Assembly (NCBI GenBank): GCA_027014115.1
Contig: JALWEJ010000056.1
Coordinates: 1-35,512, forward strand
DNA length: 35,512 nt
DNA from: Desulfurellales bacterium
GTDB lineage: Bacteria; Campylobacterota_A; Desulfurellia; Desulfurellales; Hippeaceae
Direction of reading: 5' to 3'
Numbering within the stretch: position 1 is the first letter of the stretch; every line of letters starts with the position of its first letter. The notes beneath the pieces are model-generated. The model did not search any database and was not told the DNA's origin. It saw only the letters and a program-made list of their open reading frames with translations. Position numbers and translations under genes: made by a program. Positions 6,177 through 21,308 of the stretch are shown here, one piece after another.

Positions 6177-8963
6177 CTATATTTTTCTTATCCTGAGCGT
6201 AAACTGGCAGCTCATAGCGCCAGCCGTTACAGGTCCAAGTCTGTATGGTATCAATCTTCCCATATCAACACCCTTTCCGGATGCATATGTCAATAGTTTA
6301 TTTTCTACGCCAAAATCACTCATGGTATACAAAGTATCCGGTCTTACAAGCTCAGTTAGATGAACGAAAGATTTAATCTTCTGGCCGGAAACAGTGTTTT
6401 CAACCTCTATCTTGTCTCCCTCTTTCAACCCAAGCTCTTTGGCTTTTTTCGGATTAATCCAGAAGCCGAAATTCTCTGCCGGGTATCTTTCGGTTATAGC
6501 CATAAGTAGAGGGTTGTCGGCTGTTGTAAGATATGTATGCTGCGGAGTTTTTCCAAATGCAAAGAAGAATTCGTTATCCTTTGGTTTGAATTCTTGATCT
6601 GCGCCTTTTCTGTATTCAACGGGTATGTATTTCAAGACAGGATTCCAATGTTCATCATAACCGTATGCATCATTAAAATGAGCAAATAGCGTTGAATATA
6701 TTTCAACCCTTCCTGAGAATGTAGGAACAGGTAATTTATACGGCATACCTGCCTCTTCCATTAATTCTTTATGGTCTTTGAGCTTGATTACGCCATTTTT
6801 CTCAAGCGCCGCTTCAAGTTGCTCAGGTTTCATGCCAAGCTTTTTGCCGACCTCTTTCAATGCTATGTCGCCAAATGCTTTATACAGCTCTTTCTCGCCC
6901 TTCCAGGCTTTTTTAAGCTCTTTGGCAACAGTACCAAACTTCCATCCAGTAAATGAGCTTACTATACCTGCTGCTGTTTGATAAGAACCACCCATAGCTT
7001 TTGAAATGATTGTGAAAATCTCTCCGCCGCCTTTAACCTCACCAATTTGACTTACTGCCGGAAATCTCTTTCTTATTATCATATCCGGGTTAGGTCCGTC
7101 GGGCATTATTTCACTTTCTTTTTCAAGATATGTTTTGTCAGGTAAAATAACATCTGCATACTTGGCTGTATCAGACGGCAAAATTTCTGTTGCAACAACA
7201 AGCTTCAAGTTCGGATTTGTGAATGTTTTAACCCATGTTTTGTATCCGTAGTAATCCTTCATTGGATTCGTCGAATAAATATAAGCCATTTTCATCTTAT
7301 AAGGCTTGCCGTTCCAAGACAACTTACCCTCAACAGCCTCTTGAAAACCTGCATTTGTAAACAGCGAAAAAGGTATACCTTTTTCGCCTTTTTGTTTTCT
7401 GTAATCAAAATATGCTCTCGAGAAGTGAGGATAGCCTCTAAATAGAGGGAATTTACCCGAATACATCATACCTTCGAGCTTACCCATCATTCCAATTAGA
7501 CCAGGTCCCATAGCAGCTGCCATAGTTAACGCCATAGGATTGTTAAGTTTCCCGGACTCATAGGCTTCTGTAAATTTCTCTATACCTTCTCTCATCTCAG
7601 GCGTATAAATCCAACCGCCTTTCTTGTCTATCGCACCAATAAGTGAATTCAATATCGCAGCTGCTTTTCTTGCTTGAACCGTTGTTTCATACCTTGCATC
7701 CATCCATCCAAGATAAACGGTTGCAGGTCTTATGTTTGAGAATTTATCTATAATCTCTTCTATCTGCTTTTCGGGAATATCGCAAATTTCAGCAGCCCAT
7801 TTGGGTGTTGCATCCTTAACAGATTCCCACAAATAATCAAAAGCTGTTTTTACAGATTTGCCCTTATATGTAAGTCCCTTCGGAGCAAATAGAGCCGGTT
7901 TTAGTTTTTTGTTCTTTTTAAGGTTGTCGTTTGTAAATCCTTCAACCTCAACAACCTTTTCTGTAGTTTCATCATAAACATAGTATTTTTCTGATATCGG
8001 CAGTGCTTGAGGGTTATGGTTTTGGCCCAAAGCCCTTGGCATACCATTGTCATCAAACAACAAGAAAGGTGCATTTGTATATCTTCTTAAGAATTCATCT
8101 TCATAGCCTTTCTCTTTTATAACACCCCTTAAAATAGCCATAACAAAAGGCAGATCTGTTCCGGGTTTTATGGGAACCCACATATCAGCCTTGGCGGCAA
8201 GTTCACCCTGTCTTGGGTCAACAGCAATAAGTTCCAGGCCTTTTTCCTTACCCTTTGTAAACCTTACGGCTCTTGATACCGATATACCGGCTATTGCAGC
8301 ATTTGAACCTATTGTCATCATAAGTTTTGCATTATCCGTATCTACCAAAATTTCATCGTGAGATGTCATTGTTCCAACCGTCACATTGGTTCCAGCATGC
8401 TCTGCCATAACGCACTGCTGCATAGGAGAACCAATCATATTGGGAGAACCAATGGAAGCCAAAAAGGCAAATGAACCAAGTCTTTCGTAGGCACAGGCTC
8501 TTTGTCCTGCAAAGATAGAAAACTCATGAGGCTGTATGTTGTTTTCCTTTACCTTTTTTGCTATGTAATCATAGGCTTCTTTCCAGGTTGCCTTTCTGAA
8601 TTTCCACTCACCCCTTTTTGAACCCTCAACCCTTATTAAAGGATGTGTGATTCTGTCGGGGTTGTAAACAGTCCTTATACCCGACTGTCCCCTTGCACAA
8701 ATTCTTCCTCTATTAAGAGTAGATTTTTTGTTTCCGTCAATCTTAATAGGTTTTTTAAAATCTCCGTCAACTCTTGTCCTTACAACAATATCGCATGCTG
8801 TTGAACAATAGCTACAGATGTTCGGATAGTACTTGATACTTCCTTTAGGCTTTTCTACATTAGGGGTATACAAACCTGCTTTAGCGGTAGGCTTAAAAAA
8901 CATTAAACCGCCGCCCACCAATGAAGAAAGCTTGAGGAAGGACCTTCTATTCAAAGAAATCAT
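6177..8963 (-). CDS. Molybdopterin oxidoreductase catalytic subunit, polysulfide/thiosulfate/sulfur reductase type, Tat-exported
   Basis: The start is ATG 8963 (928 residues), preceded by GGAGG; an upstream TTG is discounted. The N-terminus has a twin-arginine signal (NRRSFLK, residues 5-11, then a hydrophobic stretch), so the protein is exported folded. A [4Fe-4S] motif follows: Cys50, Cys53, Cys57 and Cys89. A candidate molybdenum ligand is Cys184 in MQQC after GSPNMIGSP. Further DMSO-reductase family blocks are visible, including SDTAKYADVILPD and a C-terminal molybdopterin dinucleotide-binding region. About 930 residues is longer than Wolinella PsrA or Salmonella PhsA (around 760) and nearer to SreA or TtrA sizes. 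It is the first gene of the operon. I infer sulfur, polysulfide, thiosulfate or tetrathionate reduction; arsenate reduction is a weaker alternative. Confidence 0.88.
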   Translation of the reverse strand: MISLNRRSFLKLSSLVGGGLMFFKPTAKAGLYTPNVEKPKGSIKYYPNICSYCSTACDIVVRTRVDGDFKKPIKIDGNKKSTLNRGRICARGQSGIRTVYNPDRITHPLIRVEGSKRGEWKFRKATWKEAYDYIAKKVKENNIQPHEFSIFAGQRACAYERLGSFAFLASIGSPNMIGSPMQQCVMAEHAGTNVTVGTMTSHDEILVDTDNAKLMMTIGSNAAIAGISVSRAVRFTKGKEKGLELIAVDPRQGELAAKADMWVPIKPGTDLPFVMAILRGVIKEKGYEDEFLRRYTNAPFLLFDDNGMPRALGQNHNPQALPISEKYYVYDETTEKVVEVEGFTNDNLKKNKKLKPALFAPKGLTYKGKSVKTAFDYLWESVKDATPKWAAEICDIPEKQIEEIIDKFSNIRPATVYLGWMDARYETTVQARKAAAILNSLIGAIDKKGGWIYTPEMREGIEKFTEAYESGKLNNPMALTMAAAMGPGLIGMMGKLEGMMYSGKFPLFRGYPHFSRAYFDYRKQKGEKGIPFSLFTNAGFQEAVEGKLSWNGKPYKMKMAYIYSTNPMKDYYGYKTWVKTFTNPNLKLVVATEILPSDTAKYADVILPDKTYLEKESEIMPDGPNPDMIIRKRFPAVSQIGEVKGGGEIFTIISKAMGGSYQTAAGIVSSFTGWKFGTVAKELKKAWKGEKELYKAFGDIALKEVGKKLGMKPEQLEAALEKNGVIKLKDHKELMEEAGMPYKLPVPTFSGRVEIYSTLFAHFNDAYGYDEHWNPVLKYIPVEYRKGADQEFKPKDNEFFFAFGKTPQHTYLTTADNPLLMAITERYPAENFGFWINPKKAKELGLKEGDKIEVENTVSGQKIKSFVHLTELVRPDTLYTMSDFGVENKLLTYASGKGVDMGRLIPYRLGPVTAGAMSCQFTLRIRKI

Positions 8964-9012
8964 AACCAACCTCCATCAGGTATTCTTAACTTCAACTTCA
9001 TTCTATCGGTGC

Positions 9013-16596: not shown

Positions 16597-19215
16597 TTGA
16601 AGTATTTAAGGGCTGTCTTTCTATTTATAGTTTCGATATTTATATTGAATTCTTCCTCATTTGCCTACAATTCAGCCGGTAATGTATGGCTTGAGCCGTC
16701 AAGCTCCAAAATATATACAAATTCAGATTTTGATATGCACATAAAGGTTGATACAGGCTCAAATCCTTTAATAGGCTACCAGATGGAAATTACCTATGAC
16801 CCCTCCGTTATCGAGATTGACACACAAAAAAACGGCGGTGTTGATGTCGGTAGTGAAGGATTTTTGTTAATCACAAGCTTGGACAGCGCACAAGGAAATA
16901 TTGCTGTAATGGGCTCCAACATTTCAGGCTCAGGTCCAAGCAAAAATCTTGATTTGCTTGTTATTCACTTCAAAGCATTAAACAAACCCGCAGCAACATT
17001 TGTGGGCATAAAAGTCAAATATTTAAAAGACAAAAACGGTATCATGAAAAATGTCCAAGGATTTCAAACAAGCATCAGTATAAAAGAAAAACCTCATATA
17101 ACAAACAATACAAAAGCAGTACAAAAAACCTTACTGCAGACAACAAAAAACGAGAGCTCTCAAACACCCACACAAGATAATAAAACAACGAAACAGAAAC
17201 AGGATAATAATACAGAACCGCTGCAAACAGAAAAACAATCCATACAAAACGATAACCAAACAGACAGCAAAAAAGAAACAGCACCAAAACCCGAAATAGA
17301 ATCATTTAAAGCAGAACCGGATAGCGGGATAGCTCCTTTGGGTGTAAATTTTTCCTGGCAGCTGTCAAACATGGACAACAAAACGGTAAGCTGTTTTGTT
17401 GATGTAGATTCAGACGGTACATTCGAATACAAAAACAGCAGCTGCAAAAACACTTCAAATTTTACATATATATACAAAAATCCCGGATTATATAAACCAA
17501 CATTAACATTAAAAGACAGCTCTGGTTTGATAATCAAAAAAACCCAAAGTATAGATGTAAAACCTTTAAGAAAATACAAACTCACGGTATCTGTAAACAA
17601 TAAAGATGAGGGGGTTGTTACAAGCACGCCCAAAGGTATTAACTGCGGTGCAAACTGTTCTTTTCAATACACGGAAAATTCAAAAGTAACACTCAATGCA
17701 AAAGAACTCACAAGTTCAATTTTTACACAGTGGGAGGGTGACTGTTCTGACTGTAAAAACAAAAAATCCTGCATAATAACAATAAATACAAACAAGCAGT
17801 GTCAAGCCGTATTCAATTCACCTCCTGTAATTACTATGTTTGAGGTAAACCCTCAAGAAGCATTTGTTGGGGATTTGGTTGACTTTATCTGCAGTGCAGA
17901 AGATAAAGACAGCAACCTATCAAAATACACAATAGACTTTGGAGACGGACAGACCAAAACAAATACAGATGGTAAATTTTCGCATACATACAAAAATGCC
18001 AAAACATACTCAGTTATATGTTCGGCTGAAGATGCAGACTCAATATCAACAAGCAAAAATTTAGAAATCACAATAAAAGAAAAACAAGCTCAAAAAGAAG
18101 AAAAAGTGAGTAAACAGCAAAAAAAAGAACAACCGATATTTTATAATCTTGATGTCTATATTACAGGAGGCGGTTTAGGCTTAATTTCAATATCTCCAAA
18201 AACGGATAACTATGAATTTGAAAAAAACACTACTGTTTCACTGGAAGCAAAAGCCGATAGTAACTCAATTTTTAAAGAATGGCAAAAAGACTGCGAAGTT
18301 TGCGATAATAATACAACATGCACAATAATAATGGATTCCGACAAAATATGTTATGCGGAATTTGAACAAAAACCCAAAGAAAAAAAGAACAAAAAACCAA
18401 AAGCGGAAATCATCAAAAGATATAAAAAGGTGGCTGTAGAAAATCCTGTAACATTAGACGGCAGTGCAAGTTTTGACCCTGAAAAAGCTCCGTTAAAATA
18501 CAGATGGGAGATAGTTTCAAAACCTAAAAACAGCAGTGTCCAAATTAAAAACATCTCATCAAGCGCAACATTCACACCCGACAAAGAAGGTTATTACACA
18601 ATACAATTAACTGTTGATGATGGAGAATATCAGGATTCAGACAACTTAACAATCGAGGCGATAGACTTGGCACAAGATAATAGGGTTTTAGTGAATTCAA
18701 TAGACAATTCAACATCAATAGACATTTTTCTTCCTCAAAATTCTCACGGCAAACTCTTAAATAGGGTCATAATCGGAAAAACAAGAAAAGATGCCGTAAG
18801 CGGCGTAAACTTCCCTTTTGGCACAATATCGTTTACACTTAAAACAGACAAAACCGGACAAACTGTAAACATCATACTTGAATTTGGCGAAAAACTACCA
18901 AAAAATCTTGCTCTATATAAGGTAGATGATAACAGTCATTATACAAATATTCCAAAGGATTTGTGGAGCAAGGTTGACGACTACACTGTATCTTTAAAAT
19001 TGACAGACGGCGGAATGTTTGATTTGGACGGAATGGAAAACGGATATATAGAAGATCCTGTTGCTTTGGCATCAGTAGAAAGCGAGAATAAAAAGTCAGG
19101 TGGCGGCGGGTGTTCAATATCAAACAACTCCCCAGAAAACGGTCTAACATTGATAATTATACTTATGCTTTCATTGATATGGTTTATTTTCAGACGGCGA
19201 AAAACATTCAGATAG
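16597..19215 (+). CDS. Large secreted PKD-repeat protein with C-terminal GGGGC/membrane/RRR sorting tail
   Basis: The start is TTG 16597 with an AGGGG ribosome site 6 bases upstream; the product has 872 residues. A signal peptide spans about 1-23. Next come a cohesin-like beta domain (about 26-165), a Gln/Thr/Lys-rich linker (166-230), a PKD-like domain (232-323), a Cys-containing InlB-B-type repeat (326-408), a second PKD domain (409-495, IDFGDGQT), a second such repeat (514-591), and a PKD/Ig-like domain (600-690). A region with GGMFDLDGMENGYIEDP (about 692-822) recalls the choice-of-anchor U module. The tail has GGGGC at 835-839, a hydrophobic stretch at 849-865 and RRRK. This layout suggests a surface protein processed near the Gly-Cys site. 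The overlapping downstream protease gene supports that. Ligand or function is unknown. Confidence 0.82.
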   Translation: MKYLRAVFLFIVSIFILNSSSFAYNSAGNVWLEPSSSKIYTNSDFDMHIKVDTGSNPLIGYQMEITYDPSVIEIDTQKNGGVDVGSEGFLLITSLDSAQGNIAVMGSNISGSGPSKNLDLLVIHFKALNKPAATFVGIKVKYLKDKNGIMKNVQGFQTSISIKEKPHITNNTKAVQKTLLQTTKNESSQTPTQDNKTTKQKQDNNTEPLQTEKQSIQNDNQTDSKKETAPKPEIESFKAEPDSGIAPLGVNFSWQLSNMDNKTVSCFVDVDSDGTFEYKNSSCKNTSNFTYIYKNPGLYKPTLTLKDSSGLIIKKTQSIDVKPLRKYKLTVSVNNKDEGVVTSTPKGINCGANCSFQYTENSKVTLNAKELTSSIFTQWEGDCSDCKNKKSCIITINTNKQCQAVFNSPPVITMFEVNPQEAFVGDLVDFICSAEDKDSNLSKYTIDFGDGQTKTNTDGKFSHTYKNAKTYSVICSAEDADSISTSKNLEITIKEKQAQKEEKVSKQQKKEQPIFYNLDVYITGGGLGLISISPKTDNYEFEKNTTVSLEAKADSNSIFKEWQKDCEVCDNNTTCTIIMDSDKICYAEFEQKPKEKKNKKPKAEIIKRYKKVAVENPVTLDGSASFDPEKAPLKYRWEIVSKPKNSSVQIKNISSSATFTPDKEGYYTIQLTVDDGEYQDSDNLTIEAIDLAQDNRVLVNSIDNSTSIDIFLPQNSHGKLLNRVIIGKTRKDAVSGVNFPFGTISFTLKTDKTGQTVNIILEFGEKLPKNLALYKVDDNSHYTNIPKDLWSKVDDYTVSLKLTDGGMFDLDGMENGYIEDPVALASVESENKKSGGGGCSISNNSPENGLTLIIILMLSLIWFIFRRRKTFR

Positions 19216-19649
19216 CACTTGAGGATTATCTTGAGTTTATAGGTTTGAAGTATAAATCATTGGATATCAACAGGTTTGTTTTTTTCATTCTGTTTTCACA
19301 ACCGGTCTATCTGTTTCTTTTTTTGTTGGACAAACCCTCAATCAACTTAAGCATAAATCTCATCTCAAAACAGTTGGTTGTATCAACACTGGAAGAGCTG
19401 CTCTTTAGGGGCATACTGCTTGGGTTTTTCATGCTTTATCTGACAAAAAAATGCTGCAGGACAGATTTTGCAAACATTGCAGCTGCTTTTGTTTTTGCAC
19501 TATCTCATATATTCAGCCACACATCCATTTGGGCTTTTGCCACATTTTTTCCGGCTTTGATTTTTGGATATTTAAGACAAAAACAAGGGCTAACATCGGC
19601 AGTACTGCTGCATTTTCTATACAACGTGGAATATTTTATGTTTTTTTAA
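19179..19649 (+). CDS. CPBP/CAAX-type glutamic intramembrane protease, probable sorting enzyme for the upstream protein
   Basis: The gene encodes 156 residues from ATG 19179; an alternative GTG at 19110 would add 23 residues, and neither has an obvious ribosome site. It overlaps the end of the upstream gene by 37 bases or more, implying coupling. Several hydrophobic segments carry the three CPBP (Abi/CAAX) motifs: EELLFRG with Glu72-Glu73 and Arg77, FALSH with His110, and HFLYN with His145 and Asn149. All predicted catalytic residues are present. Small proteases of this class serve C-terminal sorting systems such as JDVT-CTERM/MrtJ, usually next to their one substrate. The neighbouring GGGGC-tailed protein fits that arrangement. 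The precise subfamily is inference. Confidence 0.8.
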   Translation: MVYFQTAKNIQIALEDYLEFIGLKYKSLDINRFVFFILFSQPVYLFLFLLDKPSINLSINLISKQLVVSTLEELLFRGILLGFFMLYLTKKCCRTDFANIAAAFVFALSHIFSHTSIWAFATFFPALIFGYLRQKQGLTSAVLLHFLYNVEYFMFF

Positions 19650-19690: not shown

Positions 19691-19712
19691 TATGTCTGTT
19701 TTAAGGGGTGTT

Positions 19713-21308
19713 ATGAAAACAAAAAAAATTGCTGCGGTTTGCATTATTTTGATACTCACAGCCGTACAGTCATTTGCATTTACCATAAACGGAAAAATCA
19801 CCGATGAAAACAACAACCCCATACCGTATGCTTTTATTGAGGCAATTACACCCGAATATCAAATGGTATCTTATGCTCTATCCGATAAAAACGGAAACTA
19901 CAAAATAGACAACGACACATATGAAGGAAAAGCCTATGCATACGCTCAAGCCTTGGGTTATATTGGTGAATATTTCTATGAAAACGACAACAAAACAAAT
20001 CTAACAGACAGAATGGGTCTTATATCCTCAAACAGTCAGGTAAACTTTACAATGAAAAAGGGTTTTCAAAGGGTTGAGGGTGTGCAGGTAATAGTATGGA
20101 ACGACAAACTTGATGTCAATTTCCAAGTATACAAAGGATACAGAGACCTTTTGGAGAATGTATTCCTAAAAAAGCCTGATGGAACCGTTGTCACTTTGGA
20201 TTTAGAAAAAGGTTTTGTAGACGCCTCAACGCAGTGTTTCAAAAGTGCAAAATGGTGGGATTACACATTTGATGACAATCCTATACAATACGGCAGATAC
20301 AAATTCACATTTGTGTTTTCTGACGGATACAGCTCTACATATACAAAATATTTAAAAAAGGTTGATAATCTGGAGAGTGTTGATAACAGCACAATCAATT
20401 TAACAATAGACGATTCGGGCACAGCAGATATAAGCTGGTATGCAAAAAGCAATCAATACTACAGGTTGAAAATAAAAGGGGAAAATGACAACAGATACTA
20501 TTTCAGTATTCCTGCATGGCTTGGACTAAACGGCATAAAACTATCATCAAACGACATGCCGTGCCTTGAGGTTGGCAAAAACTACAAATGGGCTGTCTCA
20601 ACATACGATACATTCCCCTACCCTCCAAGTATTGTAGTAAGCCCTGTAAATAAAGGCTACCAAAGCTATATTGTAAAACAGTACAATCCAAAAAATCTAA
20701 AAAACAGGCTTTTATGGTTTGGTGTCTGGGACTTTATGGGCAAGCTTAATCTCGGATTCAATGTTAGGCAAGCATCGAGAAAAAATATAACAAAGGCTTA
20801 TGTGACTGCACCCGACGGTGCTGTTTATACATTTGACCTATCGAAAGACTGGAAAGACCTATCCACAGAAACAGATACAAACGAGGAGTTCAGCACAACA
20901 AAAAACATTCAACCTTTAAGCGGAACATACATACTGAATGTGGAATTTAAAGATACAGACAATGAAACAGCCACTTATGATTTTGAAGGTGATACATCCG
21001 ACATAACACCAATAGATAATAGTTCAATGAAAGCCGTTGTAGATAAGTTTAACGGCATACTGTTTGAATGGAAACTGCCCGATAACGGCGAAAATCAATT
21101 TTATGATGTTAGAATAAGAAGCCTTGACAACAAAAAAGAATATTTGAGAAAAATGGTCAAGGGTCAGGATTTCCTATATGCTGCACCGTGGGAGCTAACA
21201 TCACTTACACCCTCCAAAAAGTATATTTGGCTTATTCGCATATGGTCATCCAACTATTCCAAAGGGTGGGAAAGCTCTACTCATACATTTACCTATGAAT
21301 CAAAATAG
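19713..21308 (+). CDS. Secreted protein with N-terminal carboxypeptidase-regulatory-like domain
   Basis: The start is ATG 19713 (531 residues), preceded by AAGGGG; an upstream in-frame ATG at 19692 precedes that site. A signal peptide covers about 1-22, ending QSFA. Residues 24-110 look like a carboxypeptidase regulatory-like beta-sandwich (INGKITDENNNPIPYAFIEA). The remaining 400 residues are beta-rich, with two similar halves: FLKKPDGTVVTLDLEKG near 155 resembles YVTAPDGAVYTFDLSKD near 360. I see no enzyme motif, membrane anchor or C-terminal sorting tail, so it is probably periplasmic or released. It follows the protease gene on the same strand and overlaps mobA by 14 bases. I do not recognise a function. 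Confidence 0.65.
   Translation: MKTKKIAAVCIILILTAVQSFAFTINGKITDENNNPIPYAFIEAITPEYQMVSYALSDKNGNYKIDNDTYEGKAYAYAQALGYIGEYFYENDNKTNLTDRMGLISSNSQVNFTMKKGFQRVEGVQVIVWNDKLDVNFQVYKGYRDLLENVFLKKPDGTVVTLDLEKGFVDASTQCFKSAKWWDYTFDDNPIQYGRYKFTFVFSDGYSSTYTKYLKKVDNLESVDNSTINLTIDDSGTADISWYAKSNQYYRLKIKGENDNRYYFSIPAWLGLNGIKLSSNDMPCLEVGKNYKWAVSTYDTFPYPPSIVVSPVNKGYQSYIVKQYNPKNLKNRLLWFGVWDFMGKLNLGFNVRQASRKNITKAYVTAPDGAVYTFDLSKDWKDLSTETDTNEEFSTTKNIQPLSGTYILNVEFKDTDNETATYDFEGDTSDITPIDNSSMKAVVDKFNGILFEWKLPDNGENQFYDVRIRSLDNKKEYLRKMVKGQDFLYAAPWELTSLTPSKKYIWLIRIWSSNYSKGWESSTHTFTYESK

Follow-up and report, generated by a model that had tools for sequence, protein, structure and literature searches.

Within the window, which here means the whole 35,512-nucleotide stretch that was analysed, the forward strand carries two overlapping genes, one for a multidomain protein with a C-terminal sorting tail (hereafter the substrate) and the other for a small intramembrane protease. 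They comprise the following features:

16597..19215, + strand: substrate, a multidomain surface protein of 872 aa, predicted to be secreted, with a TTG start
16597..16668 (end approximate), + strand: N-terminal hydrophobic signal, probably a Sec signal peptide (hydropathy; presumed cleavage site)
16669..17100, + strand: cohesin-like N-terminal domain (AlphaFold model, pLDDT 64, compared with 2jh2)
17300..18654 (limits approximate), + strand: PKD domains alternating with divergent InlB B-repeats (PF18911, 6e-22; PF18998, 8e-15; PF22352, 2.5e-11)
18799..19071, + strand: choice-of-anchor U domain (NF041766, 100.3 bits, cut-off 32)
19096..19200, + strand: JDVT-CTERM sorting tail, consisting of SGGGGC, the transmembrane helix and the start of RRRK (NF033191)
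19111..19113, + strand: codon of the signature Cys839, the putative modification and cleavage site, invariant in six aligned tails
19141..19191, + strand: C-terminal membrane helix of 17 residues (849-865; hydropathy peak 2.72)
19192..19203, + strand: RRRK, the basic cluster that follows the membrane helix (sequence)
19179..19649, + strand: MrtJ-type CPBP intramembrane protease, 156 aa (NF033192, 66.7 bits, cut-off 75; PF02517, 48.5 bits)
19392..19409, + strand: EExxxR catalytic motif, EELLFR, residues 72-77 (homologue alignments)
19506..19508, + strand: second conserved motif, His110 (invariant in homologue alignments)
19611..19625, + strand: HxxxN motif, HFLYN, residues 145-149 (homologue alignments)

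The substrate has the N-terminal signal peptide expected of JDVT-CTERM carriers, as judged from hydropathy and sequence only. The modest-confidence model of its N-terminal domain retrieved the cohesin-like modules of 2jh2 as the best match in the PDB (E=6.5e-4, TM 0.60), and all four weak PDB sequence matches of this domain are scaffoldins. The choice-of-anchor U domain occurs as a single copy in the genome and, across the 25 genomes of the class, is restricted to tail proteins. The C terminus reads ...KKSGGGGCSISNNSPENGLTLIIILMLSLIWFIFRRRKTFR and shows the typical JDVT-CTERM anatomy of a Gly-rich signature with an invariant Cys, followed by a membrane helix and a basic end. The JDVT-CTERM model gives this tail 26.7 bits when run on the whole protein and 32.2 bits in a six-frame scan of the genome, with a cut-off of 27; neither the MYXO-CTERM nor the Synerg-CTERM model matches it. 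A search of the genome for further tails with GGGGC, a membrane segment and an Arg-rich end recovered just this one, so that the notion of many GGGGC-tailed proteins, which the initial annotation had named as fatal to its proposal, was rejected. The seven other DNA matches that could encode GGGC fall in reading frames of 9-51 codons, none of which has a membrane segment downstream of the Cys.

The protease gene overlaps that of the substrate by 37 bases in another frame. Its start is most likely ATG 19179, because the homologues align from this codon; GTG 19110 is merely the mechanical start of the open reading frame. The catalytic residues of the EExxxR, H and HxxxN motifs are invariant in both homologue alignments, and we classify the protein by sequence as a CPBP/Rce1-like glutamic intramembrane protease. 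Among all Mrt and CPBP models MrtJ gave the top score, which falls 8 bits short of the curated equivalog cut-off of 75, while the proteases of the sister species (G001, 77.2 bits) and of a more distant member of the class (G024, 113.9 bits) exceed it. For this reason we call the window protein MrtJ-type: it lies at the margin of the model and does not formally pass it. It is also devoid of Q and PSL residues that are nearly invariant in the other aligned homologues. The AlphaFold prediction for the protease (pTM 0.54) found no counterpart among solved structures, not even Rce1, and was uninformative. This is the single CPBP protein found in the 99%-complete genome; as the genome thus has one CPBP protease and one tail, the pairing of enzyme and substrate is unambiguous. 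The overlap of the genes and the single tail also fit the definition of MrtJ, whose gene lies next to that of its one JDVT-CTERM target.

These results uphold most of what the initial annotation had read from the DNA, namely a predicted secreted multidomain protein ending in GGGGC, a membrane segment and RRRK (an 872-aa frame, its hydropathy and its sequence), overlapped by a small CPBP protease with all three catalytic motifs (EELLFR, H110 and HFLYN). Its assignment of the two to a one-substrate pair of the JDVT-CTERM/MrtJ kind likewise stands, with MrtJ as the best Mrt model and a single CPBP protein and tail in the genome: the models for JDVT-CTERM, choice-of-anchor U and MrtJ all match beyond what chance would give (E=3.7e-6, 8e-29 and 2.3e-18, respectively).

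As summarised in PMC11980579 from Haft 2024, MrtJ/JDVT-CTERM (NF033192/NF033191) is sporadic in beta- and gammaproteobacteria. To the extent of that summary, the window pair shares with it the GGGGC, helix and basic tail, the small CPBP protease, the single substrate and the neighbouring genes; it differs in a protease below the curated cut-off, a host class related to Campylobacterota and a sister species in which the pair is unlinked. MrtX/MYXO-CTERM of Myxococcus xanthus is similar in its Cys signature, helix, Arg-rich end, CPBP protease and the presence of a type II secretion system (T2SS) in the genome, but MrtX serves dozens of substrates (PMC11980579) and the window protease one; on the MrtX model the latter scores 29.3 bits (cut-off 180) versus 66.7 on MrtJ. 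MrtS/Synerg-CTERM also uses a CPBP protease, and its model gives 49.7 bits (cut-off 130), well below the MrtJ score. Rhombosortase/GlyGly-CTERM of Vibrio cholerae resembles the pair in its Gly-rich signature, helix, basic end and T2SS link (PMC6219818), whereas its enzyme is a rhomboid serine protease (PMC6219818) and that of the window a CPBP glutamic protease.

We surveyed 25 genomes of the class, a search of the phylum giving the same 25, with G000 being the genome of the window and G001 a sister species in the same genus. Their small size and AT-richness, together with a PhsA-like reductase, point to Desulfurellia as the class, assigned by NCBI to Campylobacterota. Relatives of the protease emerged with an alignment as the query, a scan with the single sequence having given none, and were present in 5 of the 25 genomes (G000, G001, G003, G006 and G024). 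Strong tails, defined as matches of 55 bits or more (every other match being below 21), number one each in these five genomes and two in G022. Accordingly, all five protease genomes have a tail and 19 of the 25 lack both (Fisher p=1.1e-4; phylogeny is left out of account, so the test is indicative only). G022 (87% complete) encodes two GGGGC-tailed proteins (L027 1-384 and L028 2-619), with no MrtJ detected; the start of its contig bearing L028 reads like adapter-derived sequence. On NF033191 the substrate orthologue of G001 scores 33.2 bits, above the cut-off of 27, and the tail of G024 passes clearly at 46.2 bits. A D-x-T stretch is kept in the G001 tail and is absent from the weak-scoring tails of the window and G003/G006.

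In G024 the protease and substrate genes overlap as in the window, and in G003 the protease lies upstream of the substrate with ~430 bases between them. The pair of G006 is found at contig ends, and the flanks sum to about the same gap, which suggests a comparable arrangement. The substrate locus of G001 retains its flanks, with PrxQ on one side and CarboxypepD-like and MobA-like genes on the other and no protease between, while the protease is on another contig with different neighbours. Physical linkage is therefore common but not required. Conservation of the gene pair in relatives, which the initial annotation had proposed to examine, thus holds for the overlap in G024 and the adjacency in G003 and fails in G001; its term "dedicated" fits the only CPBP protein and only tail of the genome, and sits less well with the unlinked genes of G001 and the two tails of G022 with no detected protease. 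The G001 protease (L017 4448-4942; L026) is found beside LexA-like and Y-family DNA polymerase-like genes. In both the window and G001 the substrate locus also adjoins a gene for a secreted protein (538 aa, window 19692-21308; 56% identity) with a carboxypeptidase-regulatory-like domain and no sorting tail, which is possibly a functional partner of the substrate. A promoter and terminator scan yielded nothing above chance.

Outside the class, three gammaproteobacterial loci (L064, L068, L073) and one of Sulfurovum (L069) encode tails with GGGC or GGGGC close to MrtJ proteins whose scores exceed the cut-off. Because the same tails accompany passing MrtJ proteins, GGGGC is the normal JDVT-CTERM signature, and the suggestion that the tail might define a variant is not supported, since ordinary JDVT-CTERM tails have GGGGC as their conserved core. 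The overlapping or adjacent gene order of G024 and G003 recurs in Sulfurovum (L069) and Simiduia (L073). The paired substrates have the tail in common and are otherwise unrelated in their bodies (cohesin/PKD, PQQ-like propeller, M4-metallopeptidase-like). At five further loci from Gammaproteobacteria and Nitrospira (L063, L066, L067, L070, L071) MrtJ-like genes have no GGC-tailed gene in the retrieved neighbourhood, and their substrates may be unlinked. In the phylogeny a branch with 100/100 support separates the four proteases of the window's family from the rest. In the larger tree the G024 protease clusters with a protein from Granulosicoccaceae (95/89), which hints at a separate acquisition, though union with the window's family is not rejected (AU p=0.36) with long branches and about 110 columns. 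A non-sister placement of the window and G001 proteases, as might follow from replacement, was not supported (AU p=0.35).

The genome of the window further contains a full type II secretion operon, recognised by gene order and sizes from gspC to gspN (G000:C54, L103); the sister counterparts of its GspD, GspE and GspG pass the family cut-offs. A scan with PF03934 (GspK) had missed this system, and the GspD alignment together with the DNA revealed the full operon. T2SS genes are found in all six tail genomes and about six others, and thirteen of the 25 have neither (p=0.005, ignoring phylogeny and indicative only); in these counts G024 was scored by its gspE-to-M genes and G011 by a partial GspD match. 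Lgt is also present in the genome of the window, its gene being split over two contig ends.

Based on these observations we consider it highly probable that the two genes form a C-terminal sorting cassette of the myxosortase kind, in which one enzyme serves one substrate and which is closest to MrtJ/JDVT-CTERM. To judge from its anatomy, the substrate would leave the cytoplasm through Sec and stay anchored in the inner membrane through its C-terminal helix, RRRK remaining on the cytoplasmic side. The Cys that follows GGGG would lie on the outer side of the inner membrane and could be lipidated by a general enzyme, perhaps Lgt, whereupon the MrtJ-type protease, as its intact catalytic residues and the precedent of MrtX suggest, would cut just after the Cys and free the helix. 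The T2SS might then move the protein, folded and anchored by its lipid, to the cell surface, where contacts through the cohesin-like and PKD domains would let it act as an adhesin or scaffold. By analogy with MrtX, which cleaves its tail in a Cys-dependent manner and for which lipidation and T2SS export have been proposed (PMC11980579), cleavage at the Cys and lipid attachment are plausible. We counted for this reading the family matches, the uniqueness in the genome, the joint presence of protease, tail and T2SS in genomes of the class, the recurring gene order, the shared tail on otherwise unrelated substrates, the presence of Lgt and the precedent of the related protease MrtX, and against it the sub-threshold protease, the unlinked genes of G001, the tails of G022, the T2SS of genomes without tails and the protease model that matches no solved relative.

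Many CPBP proteins have unrelated roles, and the tail could be a plain C-terminal membrane anchor, with the protease serving elsewhere (e.g. in peptide maturation or immunity) and its adjacency incidental, as the unlinked pair of G001 might suggest; given the co-occurrence of protease and tail across the class, the finding of such pairs in other lineages as well and the ranking of MrtJ above all other Mrt models, this appears very improbable. We regard as unlikely, to a lesser degree, that the protease cuts the tail with no lipid on the Cys, leaving the substrate released or held by another contact. The cassette has no dedicated acyltransferase, and for MYXO-CTERM the lipidating enzyme is unidentified and lipid-independent cleavage not excluded (PMC11980579); the Cys is nonetheless invariant in all aligned tails and is required for MrtX cleavage (PMC11980579).

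A further possibility, which we entertain only tentatively, is that the window's family is a lineage-specific variant with its own protease-tail recognition, distinct from that of beta- and gammaproteobacterial MrtJ. The 100/100 branch, the missing Q and PSL residues and the loss of the D-x-T stretch that G001 keeps would favour this, while G001 passes both cut-offs, GGGGC is unchanged, and the tree has long branches from about 110 columns, with a union of the family and G024 not rejected (AU p=0.36). In the same tentative vein there may be a class-specific MrtJ branch that recognises GGGGC without the later D-x-T, with the protease gene unlinked in some species and always alongside a T2SS. 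Returning to the sorting cassette, the comparisons identify the window pair as a slightly divergent copy of the described MrtJ/JDVT-CTERM system, with a tail that is not new in kind.

We found no earlier reports of MrtJ/JDVT-CTERM in the group of the window, and the described beta- and gammaproteobacterial range is widened to a Campylobacterota-related class. With a single CPBP protease, a single tail and a single T2SS the genome offers a minimal case, and near relatives devoid of all three are natural controls. Divergent pairs escape curated cut-offs, as that of the window illustrates. Elsewhere in the window (6177-8969, - strand) lies a gene for a large molybdopterin oxidoreductase, with the PhsA thiosulfate reductase as its best match (346 bits, cut-off 694); its product is perhaps a polysulfide or thiosulfate reductase, and the host probably belongs to a sulfur-respiring lineage.
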